DNA of 21,005 nucleotides from a virus, in IMG/VR virus record IMGVR_UViG_3300010368_000151, positions 1-21,005 of that record; one strand, 5' to 3'. A program made the translations under genes and the position numbers. Below, piece by piece: positions 11,188-18,709 of this stretch. Below the pieces are notes generated by a model that saw nothing but the letters and a program-made list of their open reading frames with translations, had not been told where the DNA came from and made no database searches. Numbering within the stretch: the stretch's first letter is position 1; each line of letters starts with the position of its first letter.

Positions 11188-12816
11188 TCAGCGAAATAAA
11201 GAAAAGCTGCAATACGGAGGGTCAACCACCACGCCAAGGCCTTCTTCGAAGAAATAGACTCGGACTTGGGTCGTTGTTAAAAGGTCAGAAGACCGGACTG
11301 TAGCCAAGCATCGAAGCCCTCCTGTGCCACCACCTGTCAGTTGCACTGAGTAATTCACATCCGGCATGGCGGTAGTGAAGTTCACCGTATAGTCACCCGT
11401 GCCATTATCTGTAATACTAGAAACATTCCCACTAGCCCGAATAGCCACAGTACCAGTGCCGTTGAAGTTCACCCAAGCGCGGCAGGCGTAAAGAGGAGCC
11501 GTACCTGATACTGTAGCAAACTGCGCTGAATTGATTGTGGGCGTGGTCAGCGTAGGTGATGTCCCTAAAACAACTGCACCAGAACCAGTTGACGTTGTCG
11601 CCCCCGTACCTCCGTTAGCAACGGGTAACGCAGTGCCTGATAGGCTAATTGCCAATGTCCCACTTGTTGTAATTGGAGAGCCAGAAATAGACAAAAACGC
11701 TGGTACTGTTGCTGCTACCGATGTGACACTACCACCAACAGCTCCACTTGAAGCGGCAGTTACTAATCCCTTTGAATTAACGGTAACGCTCGCGTTTATA
11801 AATGAACCAACATTTGCATTTACAGTAGCCAAAGTACCCGCCGCAGTAATATTGGCTGACCCATTAAACGCAGGACTGGTGTACGCTAAATCACCTGTGA
11901 TTGCTATGGTTCGTCCTGTAGTCAAGGTGCTTGCGCTACCCGTAGTATTTTGATTAAGGGTAGGAAACGTACAATTAGTCAGTGCCCCTGATGTTGGAGT
12001 TCCTAACAAAGGAGTGACTAATGTGGGACTAGTTGCAAAGACAACAGAACCCGTTCCTGTCTCATTGGTGACTAGGGCTGCGAGGTTGGCAGATGTTGGG
12101 GTTGTTAGGAAAGTGGCTGCTCCTGTTGCTAGGCCACTAACACCTGTAGAGATAGGAAGGCCCGTAGCATTAGTAAGTGTTGCTGACTGAGGAGTTCCAA
12201 GGATAGGTGTTACAAGAGTTGGGCTTGTAGCAAACACATTAGAGCCTGTGCCTGTTTCATCCGTGACAGCTGCTAAGAGTTGAGCAGATGTGAAGCTTCC
12301 AAGAGAGGAAGCATTGCCTACAGAGGTTATCGCCCCTGTTAAGTTTGCATTGGTTGTAACTGTTGCCGCATTCCCATTCACACTCCCTACAATTGTAGAA
12401 GAGAATGTCTTAATGCCTCCAATAGTTTCATCCCCTGTCTTATGAACAAGGTTTGAATCATTCACTGATAAAGCAGAGGCTGCTGCTTCGGCTGCTGACA
12501 GAGCTGCTGCGTCTTCAGAAAGGGCTGCATTCCCTTCACTTGTTAAGGCATTAGAAGCACTAATAGCCGCTGCTGATTCACTCAGAGCGGCTGCAATGGC
12601 AGATAGGTTAGAATCAAAAGCACTGTTTGAGGAAGCCGCTGCTGAAAGGGAAGCTGCGTCTGCTTCTAAGCCTGCTTGTTCAGCCGAGTTAGATGCTTGA
12701 AGAGATAACGCTGTAAGTTCTGTTATTTCAGAATCTGTAGTGGCATTACCACCACCACCGGGCCCTCTGTATATGGTTTGCTTCAGGTGCTTGTATTTTG
12801 GAAAATCACAGAACAA
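11188..12816 (-). CDS. Long tail fiber with repeat modules, TTG start
   Basis: The 542-aa protein has a short N-terminal segment (IYRGPGGGGNATTDSE, residues 15-30). An Ala/Ser-rich helical or coiled-coil shaft covers about 35-118, then a KTGDETIGGIKTFSS motif usual in phage fibers. A beta region follows with repeated units of the type GTGSxVFATSPTLVTPxLGTP. The C-terminal ~95 residues (from CRAWVNFNGTGTVAIRASG) form a domain I recognise from many phage fiber tips. It is probably a trimeric adhesin. No ATG exists in frame near the start. TTG at 12816 lies six bases after GGGGA and two bases past the preceding stop, so it is the likely initiator. The gene order (capsid, small gene, fiber, adaptor) is slightly unusual for T7 itself. 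Confidence 0.84.
   Translation of the reverse strand: MFCDFPKYKHLKQTIYRGPGGGGNATTDSEITELTALSLQASNSAEQAGLEADAASLSAAASSNSAFDSNLSAIAAALSESAAAISASNALTSEGNAALSEDAAALSAAEAAASALSVNDSNLVHKTGDETIGGIKTFSSTIVGSVNGNAATVTTNANLTGAITSVGNASSLGSFTSAQLLAAVTDETGTGSNVFATSPTLVTPILGTPQSATLTNATGLPISTGVSGLATGAATFLTTPTSANLAALVTNETGTGSVVFATSPTLVTPLLGTPTSGALTNCTFPTLNQNTTGSASTLTTGRTIAITGDLAYTSPAFNGSANITAAGTLATVNANVGSFINASVTVNSKGLVTAASSGAVGGSVTSVAATVPAFLSISGSPITTSGTLAISLSGTALPVANGGTGATTSTGSGAVVLGTSPTLTTPTINSAQFATVSGTAPLYACRAWVNFNGTGTVAIRASGNVSSITDNGTGDYTVNFTTAMPDVNYSVQLTGGGTGGLRCLATVRSSDLLTTTQVRVYFFEEGLGVVVDPPYCSFSLFR
11971..12066 (-). repeat. Fiber internal repeat, copy 2
   Basis: Encodes the fiber module GTGSVVFATSPTLVTPLLGTP and following residues. 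The DNA is clearly related to 12167-12260 but diverged at many third positions. A more diverged version (GAVVLGTSPTLTTPTINS) lies near 11530-11600. The copies probably build successive beta units of the shaft. Confidence 0.7.
12167..12260 (-). repeat. Fiber internal repeat, copy 1
   Basis: Encodes GTGSNVFATSPTLVTPILGTP, the upstream copy of the module at 11971-12066. Protein identity is higher than DNA identity, which suggests selection on structure rather than a recent duplication. Confidence 0.7.
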
Positions 12817-12818
12817 TG

Positions 12819-12977
12819 TTATTCCCCTTTGACTTGTTTCTTAGGCTTTGGAGGGGCAACGGGAGCTGGGGCAGCGACCACCTCCTCGTATTCCGCATGA
12901 GCTCGCATGTTCTCAATTGCTTCAGACTCTGTTAGTTCATAAACACAACCACTATGCACACATTTAAATTTAGCCAT
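12819..12977 (-). CDS. Small 52-aa protein with CxxxxC motif
   Basis: The ATG at 12977 follows AAAAGGAAAACAA, a strong Shine-Dalgarno. The 52-aa product opens MAKFKCVHSGCVYELTESEA, with two Cys four residues apart and a His between them. A short acidic helix follows, then a Pro/Ala segment (APAPVAPPKPKK) and a basic end. One Cys pair is not enough for a standard zinc finger, but dimeric or partial metal binding is possible. Similar short proteins (K-C/Y-x-C-x-H-S-G) occur near capsid genes of other phages, from memory. It is the first gene after the capsid terminator and ends two bases before the fiber TTG. Confidence 0.72.
   Translation of the reverse strand: MAKFKCVHSGCVYELTESEAIENMRAHAEYEEVVAAPAPVAPPKPKKQVKGE
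12823..12830 (-). promoter_or_regulatory. Ribosome-binding site supporting the fiber TTG start
   Basis: AAAGGGGA on the minus strand lies six bases upstream of TTG 12816, inside the last codons of the 52-aa gene. With no ATG available, it fixes TTG as the probable fiber initiator. Confidence 0.65.
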
Positions 12978-13023
12978 TTGTTTTCCTTTTTGCAAAGCTC
13001 TGAAGGGGCCTTCGGAGGTCTAT

Positions 13024-13048
13024 AAAAAGGAAGCCCCGTAGGGCTCCC
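13024..13048 (-). terminator. Rho-independent terminator after the major capsid gene
   Basis: On the minus strand, GGGAGCCC, a four-base loop and GGGCTTCC pair over 8 bp with one G-U wobble, and TTTTTAT follows at once. The same stem on the plus strand has an A-C mismatch and lacks a T-tract, so it acts on the minus strand. It starts 12 bases after the capsid stop, the same position as the T-phi terminator behind T7 gene 10. Some read-through is needed to express the tail genes unless there is another promoter. Confidence 0.8.
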
Positions 13049-13059
13049 CTTAAGCCGGT

Positions 13060-13983
13060 TTAGGCTGGAACCACAAGAGCAACAGCCGAAGCGTCGCGCA
13101 GTTCCTTAACACCGTACAGCGTGTCAGCAGTGAACAAGGTACCGAGGTATTCTTGTTTGTACTGAGTTTGTGAACGAACGCCCATCTGCTCGATAAACAC
13201 TGCGAAGTCTTTATGACCCAACAGGCAAACCTTAGCAGCGGTGGTGCCGGTAGTGGATTCAGCGTTGCTGGTCACGAAGACCGGAACACCGTAAACATTA
13301 CCAATTTCACCGTTACGGATGGTGTTGCTAGAGCCTTGCTCACCAACGAATGCCTGCTCAGTAAACCGTGCAATACCCATCAAGGTGTTACGGGTTGAAG
13401 GAGGGACAATCAGGAAGCGGCCGTCCATAGGCACATCGTTGTCATCAAGGCGCTGGATAGAACGACGAATTGCTGCGTCAGTCAAAGCACCCAAGCCAGT
13501 GTTTGCACCAGCGACATAAGCGGTTGTACCGTCAGCGCCGGAGAAGGCAGCAGTGTAGGCAGCAGTGCCGTTACCGCCGTTAACACCACGACCCAGTTGG
13601 ATCAACGAAGTGTCCACCTGACGGGCCAAAGCGTAACCAGCATCTTCAGTGTAGAAGTTGCGGAGCGAAGCCAGAGCTTGCGTCTCAACAATATCTTCAA
13701 TCAGACGCGAGTATTCGTAGTGCTGGTCGATCGTAGCAACAATTTCCAACTCAGTGCCTGCAATCAGGGTGACTTGAGCGGAAGCAGCTTTAACCGAAGC
13801 AGAGCCACGGATAGGAGCAGGAATGTGAACGCTGTCACCTTTCTTGCCTTTGAAGCTCATCTTTTTAATCAGATTAGCCAGAACCAAGTTCTTCTTATAG
13901 GTTGCAACAATTTCATCGCTCCAGATTTCTGGGATGAACGTTGCAGCGGTTGTCGTAGTGACGTGAGCGGTACCAAGAGCCAT
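13060..13983 (-). CDS. Major capsid protein (HK97-like fold)
   Basis: The 307-aa protein starts MALGTAHVTTTTAATFIPEI with IWSDEIVATYKKNLVLANLI, the usual N-arm of small podovirus capsid proteins. KKGDSVHIPAP and GTELEIVATIDQHYEYSRLIEDI follow (P-domain/E-loop side), then FLIVPPSTRNTLMG and GNVYGVPVFVTSN near the A-domain. The C-terminus is short and non-polar. The length suits a T=7 phage without a decoration-domain insertion. It lies right after the scaffold gene. ATG 13983 has AAAGGA nine bases upstream. No slippery site or readthrough extension is seen at the 3' end; the stop is directly followed by a terminator. Confidence 0.92.
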   Translation of the reverse strand: MALGTAHVTTTTAATFIPEIWSDEIVATYKKNLVLANLIKKMSFKGKKGDSVHIPAPIRGSASVKAASAQVTLIAGTELEIVATIDQHYEYSRLIEDIVETQALASLRNFYTEDAGYALARQVDTSLIQLGRGVNGGNGTAAYTAAFSGADGTTAYVAGANTGLGALTDAAIRRSIQRLDDNDVPMDGRFLIVPPSTRNTLMGIARFTEQAFVGEQGSSNTIRNGEIGNVYGVPVFVTSNAESTTGTTAAKVCLLGHKDFAVFIEQMGVRSQTQYKQEYLGTLFTADTLYGVKELRDASAVALVVPA

Positions 13984-14013
13984 TTTAAATTTCCTTTAGC
14001 GCATTAGCGCGTA

Positions 14014-14781
14014 TTATTTAACCCGCCCATCCGCATAAGCCTGACGAATTTCAGGTTCAAGCGTCTCGTATCGAGCGGGGTCTGTCATGCGAAGCCGGAT
14101 AAGGTCGGCACGACGATATACTTTCCGTGAAGTTTCACCAGTTCCGCCAGTATCAACAGTTGCAGCACGCATGTTGGCTTTAAGGGCCTCTGCACCATCG
14201 GTGCGCGTCTGTGTTGTCTTTACATTGCGAATCTGTTTGAATGTTGATAGCAGCTCATCTGCGGAGTCGAAGTCAAAGGAGGTGTCCGCTGCTGTATACA
14301 TTTGCATGCGAAGCTTACTTCCCTTAACCCAGTCGGTAAACTCAGGGTCTTGCACAATCTCTGCAAAGTCTGGATGCTTCTTTTGGAGAGCACCTTGGCT
14401 TTGCATTTGTTTGAATTGTGCCGCAGCCTGTTTAGCTGCCAAGACATCTGGATGTTTATCCACCGCGTTACGAACTGCTGTCTTTGGGTCTTCAAAGAAA
14501 TCAATCTCGTTTTCAATCTGAGTAGGGGCTTCTGTTTTATAGAGTTGTTGTTTGAGTAGTTCATCTGCCAGCTTACGCACCTCCCCCACCTCTTGAGCCT
14601 GCCGTCCAATAAGCTTCTCAGCCTCTTGGTGCATGTTCATGATGTCTTCCAGACTCTTGCCTTCATATTTAGAAGGAATCTTTGGACGCTCAGGGGGAGC
14701 CTCAGAAGCCGCTTGGGCCTCCTTACGTTCCACTGCATCAAATTCACTATCGCCCATGTCTACTTCATCAAAAATTGCCAT
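14014..14781 (-). CDS. Capsid assembly scaffolding protein
   Basis: The 255-aa, highly charged, mostly helical protein starts MAIFDEVDMGDSEFDAVERK. It has an acidic N-terminus, a KYEGKSLEDIMNMHQEAEKLIGRQ segment, long coiled-coil-like helices and a basic C-terminus (YRRADLIRLRMTDPARYE...YADGRVK). The RRADLIRLRMTDPxRYE ending is characteristic of scaffolds in T7-like and related phages, where the C-terminal helix binds capsid protein. It precedes the capsid gene, as is standard. ATG 14781 has AAAGGAC just upstream. It is expected in the prohead but absent from the mature virion. Confidence 0.9.
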   Translation of the reverse strand: MAIFDEVDMGDSEFDAVERKEAQAASEAPPERPKIPSKYEGKSLEDIMNMHQEAEKLIGRQAQEVGEVRKLADELLKQQLYKTEAPTQIENEIDFFEDPKTAVRNAVDKHPDVLAAKQAAAQFKQMQSQGALQKKHPDFAEIVQDPEFTDWVKGSKLRMQMYTAADTSFDFDSADELLSTFKQIRNVKTTQTRTDGAEALKANMRAATVDTGGTGETSRKVYRRADLIRLRMTDPARYETLEPEIRQAYADGRVK

Positions 14782-14842
14782 ACCGTCCTTTCATCCTGCC
14801 CGTAAGGGTTTTAGGAGAGTTAAATAGTTCAGAGGTTGTCGC

Positions 14843-15070
14843 TCACGCGTTCTTCTGTTCTTGTTTGAGCTTTTCAGCTCGATTCCTCACCCATTTATCC
14901 GAAGCTCCGGGAAAAGCACCTGTAATGCCCTCCAATGAAATCATCGGGGTGGATAAGATACGAATTGCTTCTTCGCCACATTCTTTACAGGAAGTGACTC
15001 GGATGCTTTCGTCTATGTAATGCTCAGATACATGCTTCTGGGCGCAGCGAAACTCATAGATTCTTTTCAT
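14843..15070 (-). CDS. Small zinc-ribbon protein (FmdB-like)
   Basis: The 75-aa product has Cys9-x3-His13 and Cys28-x2-Cys31 within the first half (MKRIYEFRCAQKH ... SCKECGEE), followed by a short segment IRILSTP. This layout is that of FmdB-type zinc ribbons, with His replacing one Cys. The C-terminal half carries GAFPGASDKWVRNR and a basic helix. Such proteins recur next to scaffold genes in related phages; the function is unknown and could be regulatory or structural. ATG 15070 makes an ATGA overlap with the upstream gene. It ends 61 bases before the scaffold start. Confidence 0.78.
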   Translation of the reverse strand: MKRIYEFRCAQKHVSEHYIDESIRVTSCKECGEEAIRILSTPMISLEGITGAFPGASDKWVRNRAEKLKQEQKNA

Positions 15071-15297
15071 TCTGAGAGTTCCTCATAAGCCCGTTCACAC
15101 GCTTCTTTGCGGGTTAAAAGCAGGTTAAGAATGTCGAGCTGTCCTTGGCGATTAAATAAAGATTGTGAATCTAGGACAGTTGACAGTTCATTAACCGTGT
15201 TTTTAATTTCTTGCAAATCCTCCATCAACAGTTTCCACCCTTTGGTGGCCATCATTGAAAAGGTTTCTTCGTAGTATTGCTGGAGATGAGGAGCCAA
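15067..15297 (-). CDS. Small 76-aa helical protein, TTG start
   Basis: The product is a helical, slightly acidic protein (QQYYEETFSMMATKGWKLLM, then a Leu-rich second helix ending in RKEACERAYEEL). The pattern resembles small conserved proteins found before scaffold genes in other podoviruses; the role is unknown. The start is probably TTG at 15297: GAAGGA lies seven bases upstream, whereas the in-frame ATGs at 15255 and 15252 have no binding site and would cut the first helix. It is the first gene downstream of the promoter at 15329-15358. Confidence 0.72.
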   Translation of the reverse strand: MAPHLQQYYEETFSMMATKGWKLLMEDLQEIKNTVNELSTVLDSQSLFNRQGQLDILNLLLTRKEACERAYEELSE

Positions 15298-15304
15298 AGC
15301 TTTA

Positions 15305-15310
15305 TCCTTC
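15305..15310 (-). promoter_or_regulatory. Ribosome-binding site supporting the TTG start at 15297
   Basis: GAAGGA on the minus strand ends seven bases before TTG 15297. It lies just downstream of the promoter, giving a leader of roughly 25 bases. Confidence 0.6.
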
Positions 15311-15328
15311 TGTTGTTTTGTAGCAACT

Positions 15329-15358
15329 ATTGTATCATAAATACAACACTTTTGTCAA
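15329..15358 (-). promoter_or_regulatory. Sigma70-like promoter for the scaffold-capsid segment
   Basis: Minus strand: a perfect -35 TTGACA (15358-15353), an 18-base A+T-rich spacer, and TACAAT (15334-15329, five of six matches to TATAAT). The -35 box contains the stop codon of the collagen-like gene, and the -10 sits in the only gap before the next start. The context is that of a host-RNA-polymerase promoter inside the virion cluster. The start site would be near 15322. Confidence 0.75.
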
Positions 15359-16671
15359 GCCATTTGTAATTTATATGCTGGAACCGTAACAGTGCCTGCT
15401 GTAGTTCCGGGGAGATTAGTTGTCTTAAGGGTTATGGTTGCATCGCCCCAGACGTAATACCTAATCTTAGTGCCTGTGGCGTAGTAATGAGACACCCCAA
15501 TAACAACCTCTGTTTCCGTCTGATTTACCAGTTCTAGCTTTCTTGCCGAATACCGATCAATTTCCCAGCCAGCTCCCTTGTCTTCTTCAGCATAGAAATA
15601 AATATATCTATTAGAAGCTGATGGAGTTGCGTTAAACTTCAAGTTCAGAGAATATGAGCTGCTTGCAAGGGTTGTCATAACCCCTGTTGCTAGGTCGTAG
15701 GTGAAACCATCGTTATGAGCAATGGTTGTCGCTTTGAACACCACAGGCGTTGTTGGAAGCACTACCGTAGCATTAATATTGAGCAGTTCAATAGAAGGAA
15801 ACCAGTCCTTCTTGTCAACCCTCACGTACACACGACCATTAACGGCATCGCTAAGCACCACAGTACACATTTCAACGACATACGCAGGCTGAATCGGGGG
15901 TATGTCAGTGAGCATTCCCGTTGTTTCAGACAAATAGAGGATGGTTCCTGTTGGATAGGCAGAGGTGTTTAAACCACTTACAAGCCCAGAAACGCACACA
16001 TAGCCATAGGTGTTAACCTCCAAAGGGGCCGTAACAATGCCCAGAATGGCCTCCGAAGTGGCTTTAGTTGAAGCATCGGCCTTAACAACACCGGGGAAGT
16101 TGGTGTCTGTTCCGCTAATATAAACAACGTCTCCATCAGTTAGAAGGGCTCCGGAGGTGTTATAAACACGGACAAGCATCTCCCTACCGATGTTGACAGT
16201 TACATTCTCTTCCTCGTTGTAATAGGCAAGGGAGTGGTCGAAGTTGTCATAGAACAACAAACCCTCTTGGTGCTGCGGATTAGGGAGCGTTGTATTGAAG
16301 TCAATCCTGTCCCAAGCATTCCCGTGGGTTTGCTTCAGAGCAATCAGGGCTTTGGCCTCTGAAGGCGTTATAGCCCCACAATCAATCTCCCGTCCGTCAG
16401 AGAGGGTGATGACAAGGCTGTTGTCGAAGTCAATACGGGCATCAACTACTGACACCCCTTGCTTGCCTGTCTCGCCTTTGTCCCCTTTAGGGCCTTTAGG
16501 GCCTTCTGAGCCCTGCTTCCCTGCCTCTCCCTTAGCCCCTTGCTCACCAGAGGCTCCTACAGGCCCTCTAGGGCCTTCTAAGCCATCTAGAGGGATGGGG
16601 ATAGCCACTAAGGCTGAAACACGCTCACGGAGGGTTTTAAGCTCCGTTGCTAAGATGATGGCTTTATCCAT
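15355..16671 (-). CDS. Collagen-like probable head fiber protein
   Basis: The 438-aa protein has an N-terminal helix (residues 1-22) and a collagen-like run of about 14 uninterrupted Gly-X-Y triplets (about 30-72, with GPR, GPK, GDK and GET). A middle region has beta-rich motifs (GDVVYISGTD, ILGIVTAPLEVNTYGYVCVSG), and a ~145-residue C-terminal beta-rich domain could be a C1q/TNF-like jelly roll. Collagen triplets trimerise, so this is likely a trimeric fiber. Its position between portal and scaffold, away from the tail genes, suggests a head- or portal-associated fiber rather than a tail fiber. The start ATG 16671 overlaps the portal stop by 8 bases with a weak binding site, so translation is likely coupled. 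Confidence 0.75.
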   Translation of the reverse strand: MDKAIILATELKTLRERVSALVAIPIPLDGLEGPRGPVGASGEQGAKGEAGKQGSEGPKGPKGDKGETGKQGVSVVDARIDFDNSLVITLSDGREIDCGAITPSEAKALIALKQTHGNAWDRIDFNTTLPNPQHQEGLLFYDNFDHSLAYYNEEENVTVNIGREMLVRVYNTSGALLTDGDVVYISGTDTNFPGVVKADASTKATSEAILGIVTAPLEVNTYGYVCVSGLVSGLNTSAYPTGTILYLSETTGMLTDIPPIQPAYVVEMCTVVLSDAVNGRVYVRVDKKDWFPSIELLNINATVVLPTTPVVFKATTIAHNDGFTYDLATGVMTTLASSSYSLNLKFNATPSASNRYIYFYAEEDKGAGWEIDRYSARKLELVNQTETEVVIGVSHYYATGTKIRYYVWGDATITLKTTNLPGTTAGTVTVPAYKLQMA

Positions 16672-18709
16672 TACTCATCAAAGTGTTAAACGTGTTGTCA
16701 TTCTCCTTCTTCTTGTCCATCTGCATCATGGTGATTCGTTCATTGCGCTTGCTGTCTTCTTCTTTAATGGATAAATCCTTTTCCTTCAGCATAAGCTCAG
16801 TGATACGGGCACGACGCTCAAAGTCTTTGCTCTCATTGTCCTCATTCAGGTTGGTAGACAAAGCTGCTGTGAGCTTCGCCTGAGCCAGTTGAGGGGCCAG
16901 TTGAGTGTCCACAACAATTTGCTGAGCCTCTGCGCCAGCCTTCTGAGCCTTGGCAGCCAATTCAGCTGTTTGAGCACCAATGAGCTGAGCCTGCATTTGT
17001 TTCTGCTCTTGATCGGCCTTCTGAGCCTCTGGGTTTGGCTGACTCATCTTGTCCAGCGTTTCCATCAGTTCTGCACGGTTGGACAACGAGCTATTAGCCA
17101 AAATCCCTTTGAGCAGCACCGGCAGCACCGGAGTGTTAGGGCCAAGGGTTTGCAGCAAGCCAATCATCTGCTGCTGTTCATACTCACGTGCAAGCACGCC
17201 CAGCGTAGCCGTAGGAATGAAGGTCATGTCCACAGAAGGATAACGCTCAGGGTCAAACTGCATATAGCGATACACAGCTTTGTAAATGAACGGAATCATG
17301 AAATCTTCTTGGAAGTTTACAAGGGTGCGCTTGTACTTCTTGATGATACCTGCCATAGCCATCGACATGCCCTGACCACCACCGTCGCGCTGCGTAGCGG
17401 AAGGTAGACCAGCACTATCCACAGTTCCGGTTGCTTGGAGAAGCATACGTTCAAAGTTTTGTGCAGCCGCTGGAGCGTCCACATTTGTTTGACCGAAGTG
17501 GAAGGGGTAGATGATTTCTGCTGGGTTACCATTGGTGAGAAGAGCCTTACCGGGTTTAACTTCAAACTTAGCACCTCGCGGAAGCCGCGTAGCGTCCATA
17601 GCAATCATAGGGGCTGTGGTGAGGGCTAGGGAGTCCATATGAGCCCGTAGCTGGCCGTCAATGGCCTTCTGCATGTTGTAAGCCTTCTCCACCGTCCCAC
17701 GGCCATAGAAGCGGCCCGGAACTGTATCGTCTTGATAGGCAACTACAGGACGATCCTTCATCATGTAAGGAGATTCCTCAGCCTTCAAGAGCTGCCCGTC
17801 ATTAGCAATTACAACAATGGCTTCAACCATGTCGCTGTATTCGTCAGCAAGGGAGTCATCTGGAAACAAGTCCACTTCTTCACTCTCGTCTTCGTCAACA
17901 GCTTTCAAATACTCACGAGGAACCAAGCCGTAATACGTAATCAGCTTAACCTTATCGTCTTGGTAATAGGAAAGCTCTTGAGTTGGCTCCAAGTCGCTGT
18001 CTTCGCCACTTGTACCAATATCCACCTTTTTATAAATACCCTTCTCCATGCCTTGTACAATCTTGTGCACAGAGACATACTTCTCCACGGCGCAGCCCAT
18101 AGCTTCTTCAATGCTATCTGCGTTTGGATCAATAATGAAGTTCTTAGGGTTGATGGGCTTCAGTTTCACACAGAAGCGCTCCGAAGCCTGAACCCCAATA
18201 GCTGCCATGCCCTGTACGCCTTGCATAGCTTGGGTGGCTGGTTTGTATTCGGTGTAGGAAGCAACAGAAATCTCACCAATGCCTGTTCCGTAGATTTCAG
18301 CCATTAGTTCAATATGGTCAATGCTCTTCTTAATCTTGTCCCGCTTGAAGTCTTCAACCAACAGCGTCTTAATGGCTTGGATGTCCATTGGATTGCCGTC
18401 AACGTCCTTCACGTCGTCTTGAATGTCAAAGAACTCTCCTTGACCGAAGATTGCCTCAATAACTTCAGCGTGGCGGGTTTCCACGGCCTGCTGAGTTGCT
18501 GGGCTAATAATGCGGCTGCGTTCGCTTTCACGGGTCTTGTCCTCAGCAGCCCATTGGCCACGGAAGATTCGTTCAAACTCACACCAATTTTCCAAATAGT
18601 TGGTATCGCGGTGGTCACGCCAGCGGTTTAGGTGGCCTGTAACCCAATCAACGAGCTCCTTTTCGTTATTCGTCGCTTCTTCAAATACCACTGGTGCTTC
18701 TTTAGCCAT
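16664..18709 (-). CDS. Portal (head-tail connector) protein
   Basis: The 681-aa product is expected to form the dodecameric ring at one capsid vertex through which DNA is packaged. Features seen: an acidic N-terminus with HLNRWRDHRDTNYLENWCEFERIFRGQW, IISPATQQAVETRHAEVIEAIFGQG, MAEIYGTGIGE, and PVVAYQDDTVPGRFYGRGTVE with YNMQKAIDGQLRAHMDSL. The last is typical of portals of this size class. A C-terminal tail of about 110 residues is rich in Gln, Lys, Glu and Ala (barrel/coiled coil). It lies eight bases after terL. ATG 18709 has AAGGA seven bases upstream. The family assignment rests on these motifs plus strict synteny. Confidence 0.92.
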   Translation of the reverse strand: MAKEAPVVFEEATNNEKELVDWVTGHLNRWRDHRDTNYLENWCEFERIFRGQWAAEDKTRESERSRIISPATQQAVETRHAEVIEAIFGQGEFFDIQDDVKDVDGNPMDIQAIKTLLVEDFKRDKIKKSIDHIELMAEIYGTGIGEISVASYTEYKPATQAMQGVQGMAAIGVQASERFCVKLKPINPKNFIIDPNADSIEEAMGCAVEKYVSVHKIVQGMEKGIYKKVDIGTSGEDSDLEPTQELSYYQDDKVKLITYYGLVPREYLKAVDEDESEEVDLFPDDSLADEYSDMVEAIVVIANDGQLLKAEESPYMMKDRPVVAYQDDTVPGRFYGRGTVEKAYNMQKAIDGQLRAHMDSLALTTAPMIAMDATRLPRGAKFEVKPGKALLTNGNPAEIIYPFHFGQTNVDAPAAAQNFERMLLQATGTVDSAGLPSATQRDGGGQGMSMAMAGIIKKYKRTLVNFQEDFMIPFIYKAVYRYMQFDPERYPSVDMTFIPTATLGVLAREYEQQQMIGLLQTLGPNTPVLPVLLKGILANSSLSNRAELMETLDKMSQPNPEAQKADQEQKQMQAQLIGAQTAELAAKAQKAGAEAQQIVVDTQLAPQLAQAKLTAALSTNLNEDNESKDFERRARITELMLKEKDLSIKEEDSKRNERITMMQMDKKKENDNTFNTLMSNG

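Follow-up and report, generated by a model that had tools for sequence, protein, structure and literature searches.

The 21,005-nt window, the whole analysed stretch of viral record IMGVR_UViG_3300010368_000151, raises the question of how the supply of its scaffold and capsid proteins is set. The preliminary description had proposed that a near-consensus sigma70 promoter and a rho-independent terminator bracket two small genes, scaffold and capsid. We found both genes in the unit, together with two others, p76 and zn75, giving four in all. The unit lies on the minus strand and runs from the promoter through the four genes to the terminator:

15329..15358, minus strand: sigma70 extended -10 promoter, TTGACA-N18-TGaTACAAT, assigned from the sequence and its conservation upstream of p76
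15067..15297, minus strand: p76, first gene of the unit, 76 aa, all-helical, TTG start
14843..15070, minus strand: zn75, FmdB-like zinc ribbon of 75 aa (PHROG 1076, Pfam Zn_ribbon_8)
14014..14781, minus strand: scaffold protein, assigned from position, predicted helices and a weak profile match
13060..13983, minus strand: major capsid protein of the P22-coat type (PHROG 267, Pfam Phage_capsid_2, P22_CoatProtein)
13024..13051, minus strand: intrinsic terminator, 11-bp hairpin and T-run, assigned from fold energy and conservation

The capsid protein matched PHROG 267 with an E-value of 5.6e-52, and both Phage_capsid_2 and P22_CoatProtein scored above the Pfam cut-off. The C-terminus of the scaffold matched PHROG 19777 (head scaffolding) at E 0.018, and the protein matched PHROG 13678, a family of unknown function, at E 1e-11. 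The scaffold model, of moderate confidence (pLDDT 78.5, pTM 0.40), gave no significant PDB match and leaves an RNA-binding domain unproven; the protein has a net charge of -9, with +3 in the last 40 residues. The matches of zn75 were to PHROG 1076 (E 0.0019) and to Zn_ribbon_8 (E 7e-4, below the Pfam curated cut-off). The p76 model reached a pLDDT of 94.5, and a search of the PDB with its fold returned no significant match (best E 0.64).

Conservation was analyzed in two sets of loci. The first consisted of the first 80 relatives and the window, and the second comprised 164 or 165 loci for the promoter and the p76 element and 112 for the hairpin after the capsid gene. Among cultured phages, we found no DNA-level relatives of positions 12800-16700 and no protein relatives of the scaffold or p76; the 48 capsid relatives recovered were all less than 60% identical.

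The putative promoter consists of a -35 hexamer TTGACA (15358-15353), an 18-nt spacer, a TG (15337-15336) and a -10 hexamer TACAAT (15334-15329). It agrees with the sigma70 consensus at 11 of 12 bases, and the TG and a spacer within 16-18 nt are those of an extended -10 promoter. The fibre-like gene upstream ends inside the -35 hexamer, with its stop codon at 15357-15355, and transcription would start at about 15322. We considered the possibility that the promoter and terminator are chance look-alikes, since promoter-like sites matching 9 of 12 bases were not in excess between 1005 and 21004 (22 found, 17.9 expected). At a PWM score of at least 14.5, the window has two sites, both on the capsid strand, compared to a shuffle mean of 0.04; nine of 200 shuffles had one such site and none had two.

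The conservation of promoter and terminator in both sets of loci and the controls at other genes make chance a negligible explanation. Of 62 loci, 47 have a site scoring at least 9 (median 15.3) no more than 150 nt from p76; the corresponding counts were 0/17 before terL, 5/25 before portal, 14/67 before zn75, 9/71 before scaffold and 4/79 before capsid. Promoters scoring at least 12 within 800 nt upstream of p76 were present in 46 of 63 loci of the first set, and in the second set in 104 of 164 compared to 8 of 492 mononucleotide shuffles. Positions that do not enter the score are conserved as well (C-36 in 34/37, T-17 in 35/37, R-16 in 34/37), and most promoter-bearing relatives have near-consensus hexamers with a 17-nt spacer. 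We therefore rejected a chance promoter. The 17 of 63 loci without such a promoter include all eight tested members of one clade, and these eight mostly retain the hairpin and the scaffold element described below. A tRNA-like stretch noted by eye before p76 in one relative (L020) was not called as a tRNA by ARAGORN.

We searched for a single-subunit RNA polymerase (PF00940) and found none in 22 relative records, which measure 16-41 kb and include several fragments, the window itself being only 21 kb; the positive control, phage Eyrgjafa, was detected at E 3e-96. Together with the sigma70 consensus, the result is consistent with the proposed use of a host-type promoter.

At the other end of the unit, a hairpin of AAGGGGAGCCC-TACG-GGGCTTCCTTT followed by TTTTTA (-16.7 kcal/mol) lies 8 nt past the capsid stop codon, in agreement with the terminator of the preliminary description. 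It has the GC-rich stem and U-run of an intrinsic terminator. The automated terminator scan did not list the hairpin at 13051-13024, probably because pairing draws its T-run into the stem. In the first set, a hairpin at or below -10 kcal/mol followed the capsid gene in 77 of 77 loci, compared to only 2 to 11 after each of five other genes; in the second set, a strong hairpin was present in 112 of 112. The scan of related genomes that had been suggested as a check therefore found the promoter and the terminator each at its own conserved place in both sets of loci. The hairpin could instead serve mainly as a 3' stabiliser of the mRNA, a possibility raised by the 7 of 77 hairpins that have no T-rich flank. 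We consider this quite improbable, since 70 of 77 and 106 of 112 loci have the T-rich flank that is usual for intrinsic terminators, and PMC6068830 describes the corresponding T7 element as a terminator.

The likeness drawn earlier to the T7 promoter and T-phi around gene 10 holds at the level of sequence elements, with a promoter before and a terminator directly after the shell genes. According to PMC6068830, phi9 and phi10 precede the T7 scaffold and capsid genes, the only known terminator for T7 polymerase comes after gene 10A, and scaffold and capsid are the most highly expressed T7 genes. The T7 promoters are read by the phage polymerase, whereas a single sigma70-type promoter precedes all four genes in the window; the unit here also has two additional small genes and RNA elements at two start sites. 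We propose that the host sigma70 holoenzyme would initiate at the extended -10 promoter before p76, and that polymerase would transcribe p76, the zinc ribbon gene, scaffold and capsid and mostly halt at the terminator. Scaffold and capsid mRNA would then outnumber portal and tail mRNA, so that the unit may boost scaffold and capsid transcripts over those of the tail genes, as had been predicted. No strong promoter was found within 300 nt after the capsid gene in relatives, so transcription of the tail genes would depend on read-through and, in some relatives, on a second promoter. Our findings suggest that the T7-like solution, in which the shell genes have their own strong promoter and terminator, is widely used with a host-type promoter, in phages for which a T7-type polymerase was not found in the 22 relative records, several of them fragmentary.

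Transcription might be one of two levels of control, as p76 and scaffold each have an RNA element over the ribosome-binding region, and the two elements share one core:

14794..14816, minus strand: scaffold-leader RNA element, UCCU-AAAA-CCC-uuac-GGG-C-AGGA, from covariation and pattern scans
15289..15308, minus strand: permuted form of the ANAA-core element, AGG-AUAA-AGC-loop-GCU-CCU, overlapping the p76 start codon

The scaffold-leader element has the general form UCCU-ANAA-stem-C-AGGA. In the core shared by both elements, a 4-nt ANAA strand faces a C or nothing and is flanked by two short, freely covarying helices, P1 and P2 (4 bp and about 3-5 bp). Covariation at this element was 0.439 compared to 0.172 in shuffled alignments, and none of 500 shuffles was as high. 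Over a capsid tree with 63 labelled rows, at least 15 changes fell on the P2 triplet; the tree without the wrongly placed row L040 gave 15 and 19 changes. The count of pair types was not above that of shuffles (442/500 and 494/500 at least as high), and a second, narrower set covaried weakly (covariation reached by 13/500 shuffles, cells paired by 226/500). Pattern scans of viral contigs linked the element to the scaffold gene: among the matches listed, 332 of 343 sites directly precede a scaffold homologue, and among the distinct new sites listed, 172 of 180 are directly upstream of a scaffold gene.

The element near the p76 start was present in 42 of 64 loci compared to 4.5% of shuffles, and in the second set in 83 of 165 loci compared to 24 of 825 shuffles. 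In many relatives, a second copy of the core, in either of two circularly permuted forms, thus overlaps the start of the first gene. The copy in the window is weak when taken alone (score 16, shuffle p ~0.07). We used no pair count from the MAFFT alignment of the p76 start, in which the 5' arms are misaligned because the loop varies in length.

A passive role for the hairpins, as dampers that cover the Shine-Dalgarno sequence or as sites of mRNA processing or stability, could account for the position of P1, which pairs with or adjoins the Shine-Dalgarno sequence; in 59 of 65 rows, 5-13 nt separate the end of the P1 3' arm from the assigned start of scaffold. A passive damper requires no invariant core, but 64 of 65 rows retain the ANAA and as many retain the C that faces it, while the helices change in sequence; the exception is L040, and the row script required only the AA that ends the core, neither the first A nor the C. 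At the starts of zn75, portal and capsid, the element is about as frequent as in shuffles, which also argues against a passive role. Typical RNase III sites have longer helices than the element. We consider a passive role improbable. Generic thermodynamic sequestration of the Shine-Dalgarno sequence at p76 was rejected, since the mean z of the minimum free energy was merely -0.66 there (+0.28 at the scaffold start). With z-scores this weak, minimum free energy alone would have missed the element, which was revealed by the specific core and covariation. We also dropped a DNA dyad in the leaders that would consist of the -10 element and, further downstream, a reverse copy (TATAACACA), because the same letters are accounted for by RNA pairing; by eye, its variable base is not mirrored.

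A conserved RNA structure over the initiation region of the scaffold gene is what is expected of an operator, and the fold at the scaffold start probably tunes the amount of scaffold protein. The elements are most likely translational operators for scaffold dose, with the scaffold as our favoured candidate binder. An excess of protein, probably scaffold, would bind the elements and repress initiation, so that scaffold supply would match assembly. Taken together, it is moderately likely that the locus is the capsid-assembly unit of a podovirus-type phage that uses host polymerase and combines a promoter, a terminator and scaffold-binding translational operators. More tentatively, the elements could form a new cis-regulatory RNA class that exists in two circularly permuted topologies and lets free scaffold repress translation from its own gene and from the first gene of the unit.

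Alternatively, the unit might be real but the RNA elements a target for p76 or a host protein; such a binder could, for example, be a general RNA-binding regulator, or one resembling a ribosomal protein, that sets the timing of capsid translation. The ANAA-opposite-C core is kept in L108, whose scaffold is merely 31% identical, and one copy lies directly over the start of p76, both of which favour such a binder. On the other hand, p76 is acidic overall (net charge -6), and the element is common to phages binned with different bacterial phyla, although such bins are weak evidence of host. CsrA requires an unpaired GGA and is unfit as a binder because the GGA is paired here. We regard a host protein or p76 as a rather unlikely binder. 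As for zn75, we did not detect it in L104 and L105, which retain both RNA elements, so it is disfavoured as the binder, and the scaffold stays our preferred candidate.

Rfam 15 at the gathering score gave no match in the window, L001, L004, L041, L008 or L029, and lax searches of the unit and three relatives gave just three weak, unrelated matches. A literature search, with subscription journals sparsely covered, found no paper on the ANAA element. The RNA element, which is small, defined by covariation, tightly linked to scaffold genes and unmatched in Rfam 15, is of greater importance than the bracketed unit and is a concrete candidate for a site that balances scaffold and shell in tailed phages. 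If the operator reading is true, capsid-protein synthesis would be coupled to head assembly in common uncultured podovirus-type phages.

Phage P22 raises the same question of balance, as its scaffold synthesis is reportedly autoregulated post-transcriptionally; to our knowledge, no RNA site has been established. Its head operon (3-2-1-8-5) has the same order of terminase, portal, scaffold and coat, a coat of the same type and an annotated putative stem-loop after coat gene 5, like the hairpin after the capsid gene in the window. The P22 late operon is served by a single distant antiterminated promoter, whereas the window has its promoter beside the unit, and we found neither the ANAA element nor a strong promoter before P22 gene 8; the lack of the element there counts against the operator reading. 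T4 gp32 and RegA and the MS2 coat protein act through autogenous translational operators, in which a small RNA structure likewise lies over the ribosome-binding site of a dose-sensitive gene. The unit in the window differs from these in its ANAA-opposite-C fold, its place in the capsid unit of a dsDNA phage, its two permuted copies and its merely candidate binder; PMC535899 describes the autogenous translational control of T4 gp32. The portal is of the SU10 type, as in the phiEco32/SU10 podoviruses. For SU10, PMC4281155 reports predicted sigma70 promoters and few terminators, with late promoters inferred to use a phage sigma factor, unlike the plain sigma70-type promoter before the capsid unit here. 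In relatives, further strong promoters were seen elsewhere along the structural strand, and some relatives have another promoter about 7-8 kb beyond the capsid gene.

The window takes in the entire virus record (21,005 bases), which is probably a fragment because the longest relatives fetched measure 36-41 kb; judging by its gene content, the virus would be a podovirus. The structural genes on the minus strand run in the order terminase large subunit (terL), SU10/P22-type portal, a collagen-containing fibre-like gene, p76, the zinc-ribbon gene zn75, scaffold and capsid, followed by a 52-aa ORF, a fibre-like gene, more tail-region genes, a large 836-aa protein and lysozyme. The region converges with a plus-strand gene that encodes a ribonucleotide-reductase domain, and a very strong bidirectional terminator hairpin at 1477-1511 (-26 and -24 kcal/mol) separates the two; similar hairpins occur in the larger relative records G001 and G005. 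A putative homing endonuclease ORF (20653-19973) adjoins terL; by eye its start resembles that of GIY-YIG proteins, and its NUMOD3 motif scores slightly below the curated cut-off. In two other larger records (G003 and G004) the DNA polymerase A domain lies in at least two separate pieces, which suggests an intron or the insertion of an endonuclease. Among cultured phages, capsid relatives were found in 48 records, all below 60% identity; searches with scaffold and with p76 found none.

The preliminary description had placed scaffold and capsid between a near-consensus sigma70 promoter and a terminator. Both genes do lie inside the bracket, which encloses four genes, p76, zn75, scaffold and capsid. 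We compared the unit in a first set of loci, the best 80 of at least 600 capsid relatives, in which this gene order was nearly invariant and the distance between portal and p76 ranged from a few tens of nucleotides up to several kilobases. The regulatory features of the window are:

15358-15329, minus strand: sigma70-type promoter, TTGACA-N18-TGaTACAAT, by sequence match
14816-14794, minus strand: scaffold-leader RNA element, UCCU-AAAA-CCC-uuac-GGG-C-AGGA, by structure pattern
from 8 nt past the capsid stop, minus strand: terminator, a hairpin with a T-run

The promoter, and the terminator directly after capsid, were as first described, and both recurred when related genomes were scanned. The gene upstream has its stop codon within the -35 hexamer, and the window holds two promoter sites of this strength, compared to a mean of 0.04 over 200 shuffles. 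The second, of equal score (8001-7973), lies inside the coding sequence of a tail gene, at about the relative position of a third promoter in relatives; the surrounding 296 nt had no match in locus L001, and the sequence of L002 ends short of there. Within 150 nt of p76, 47/62 loci (counting the window) had a weight-matrix score of at least 9, compared to 0/17 before terL, 5/25 before portal, 14/67 before zn75, 9/71 before scaffold and 4/79 before capsid. With a score of at least 12 within 800 nt of p76 the count was 46/63; L007 and L052 have their promoter some 440 nt upstream, separated from p76 in L007 by an inserted ORF. Thirty-seven dereplicated promoters, picked by score, also shared bases that play no part in that score: C-36 (34/37), T-17 (35/37) and a purine at -16 (34/37).

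The pattern TTGACW-N16-18-TAYAAT gave 36 matches in 14 of 22 relative records, compared to one for the reversed pattern, and was absent from the other eight. Three of seven mapped relatives (G002, G003 and G004) each carry three such promoters on the strand of the structural genes: one lies 0.6-1.6 kb ahead of terL, one before p76 and one 6.7-8.2 kb beyond that. Six of the eight promoter-free records belong to one clade, and the p76 promoter is likewise missing from all eight of its tested members; in this clade (L069, L074, L063, L071, L076 and L080) the pattern occurs nowhere in the records and no RNA polymerase gene was detected. The suggestion that a host-type promoter is used agrees with the sigma70 pattern and with a search for T7-type RNA polymerase (PF00940), which found none in the 22 relative records and detected the positive control, phage Eyrgjafa.

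After capsid, a strict test for a hairpin with T-run (-8 kcal/mol or better) was passed in 55/76 loci and 10/380 shuffles; each of the remaining genes passed it in 0-2 loci. A looser test, compared between genes without shuffles, found a hairpin of -10 kcal/mol or better after capsid in 77/77 loci, 70 with a T-rich flank, and elsewhere in 4/79 (scaffold), 2/71 (zn75), 11/67 (p76), 10/54 (portal) and 2/25 (terL). In 75 loci the first 300 nt past capsid contained no promoter scoring at least 12, so the tail genes would need read-through or distant promoters. A putative stem-loop is also annotated after the P22 capsid gene, and the pelagiphages HTVC115P and Eyrgjafa have hairpins there likewise; the terminator half of the bracket is therefore not peculiar to this group.

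A second set was collected by running three DNA patterns of the scaffold RNA element on viral contigs (at least 120 stretches each), which gave at least 343 new loci among the matches listed, 180 of them distinct and absent from the first set. Promoters scoring at least 12 were present in 104/164 loci (mononucleotide shuffles, 8/492), and the post-capsid hairpin in all 112 loci that could be used out of the first 120 capsid matches; a T-rich flank accompanies 106 of these hairpins. The bracket repeats a known arrangement in a sigma70 version. The RNA element had no Rfam match and no description in the literature searched.

The general form of the element is UCCU, a four-base core ANAA, stem P2, a loop, P2', a single C and AGGA. 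Its pattern matched only once in the window (0.02 expected). A script recovered this form in 65/71 scaffold leaders, the remaining six having near variants by eye. The core ANAA was kept in 64/65 and the opposing C in 64/65, the script having required AA as the last two core bases and left the first A and the C free; the one deviating row, L040, is misplaced. In 33 sequences paired cells reached 91.3%, compared to 76.6% when shuffled, and the covariation score was 0.418, compared to 0.166, with 0/500 shuffles reaching it; slid structures gave only 0.03-0.13. The score was 0.439, compared to 0.172, over 69 model matches, which include one doubtful minus-strand match in L025. The number of pair types was not above shuffles (442/500 and 494/500, respectively, at least as high). 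When L040 is left out, a capsid tree of 63 rows implies 15 or more changes of the P2 triplet and 19 or more of the core. The AGGA arm is the Shine-Dalgarno sequence or lies just upstream, 5-13 nt before the assigned scaffold start in 59/65 rows.

The same 33 sequences were turned into a covariance model, which matched the scaffold leader in 68 of the 80 first-set loci; nine of the 12 others begin within or past scaffold, leaving L070, L074 and L079 as true misses. The window and each of seven larger mapped records had one scaffold-leader match (E <0.05), with four weaker matches elsewhere in those records (E at least 0.9), and five cultured-phage loci had none. In a second capsid search the model matched 61/74 loci and 60/70 new ones, L129 alone matching among the four that are first-set contigs (L124, L126, L129 and L134); this set is narrow and covaries weakly (13/500 shuffles reach its covariation score, 226/500 its paired cells). 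Among the at least 343 pattern-found matches listed, a scaffold homologue follows immediately in 332; six more fall at the edge of the available sequence, in loci that contain p76, and the other five are unrelated (172, five and three, respectively, for the 180 distinct new loci). Among 13 MAG-contig relatives the model alone matched two scaffold leaders (L103 and L106), and a structural scan found the element in seven of eight examined (L103-L109), L110 lacking the leader. Here the helices are rewritten and the core is retained, as in L108 (CUACC-ACAA-GUCCA...UGGAC-C-GGUAG), whose scaffold is only 31% identical.

At the p76 start, 42/64 loci carry another copy of the core flanked by two helices (28 of one topology, 14 circularly permuted); shuffles gave 4.5%, so a few of the 42 are expected by chance. 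The same scan gave 5/68 at zn75, 4/79 at capsid, 1/26 at portal, 2/17 at terL and 61/72 at scaffold, and the second set had the p76-start element in 83/165 loci, compared to 24/825 mononucleotide shuffles. The window's own copy is weak alone (score 16, shuffle p ~0.07). Between the neighbouring loci L009 and L010 a compensatory change, CUC/GAG to CGC/GCG, alters a p76 codon, which suggests that RNA pairing rather than protein is conserved there.

The anatomy of the unit, its conservation and the RNA pairing are observed. Host polymerase would make one mRNA, from ~15322 to ~13025, raising shell-protein message above portal and tail as in T7, where removal of phi9 and phi10 lowers gene 10A mRNA by 84-86% (PMC6068830). 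The RNA elements would then set translation of p76 and scaffold. Because the core is invariant and the helices are free, the sequences point to a binding protein behind the element rather than a passive hairpin. The scaffold is the favoured candidate, by analogy with P22, although P22 itself lacks the element; no RNA-binding fold was detected in its model, which is of moderate confidence. The product of p76 is acidic and predicted to be all-helical. The zinc ribbon is an unlikely binder, zn75 being undetected in L104 and L105 although both loci retain both elements.

The inserted ORF of L007 (2088-2504), between promoter and p76, looks like a mobile HNH/endonuclease-VII-type gene, named from its letters and not by profile. 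Its first codons (MDKEL) coincide with a copy of the element otherwise seen at the p76 start, p76 restarts downstream, and L052 looks alike; a mobile endonuclease may have taken over promoter and operator in L007. Hairpins with the same GGA-nAAA core also lie ~380-900 nt upstream of terL in L004, L015, L020 and L029, where the element possibly controls a gene of the packaging transcript as well.
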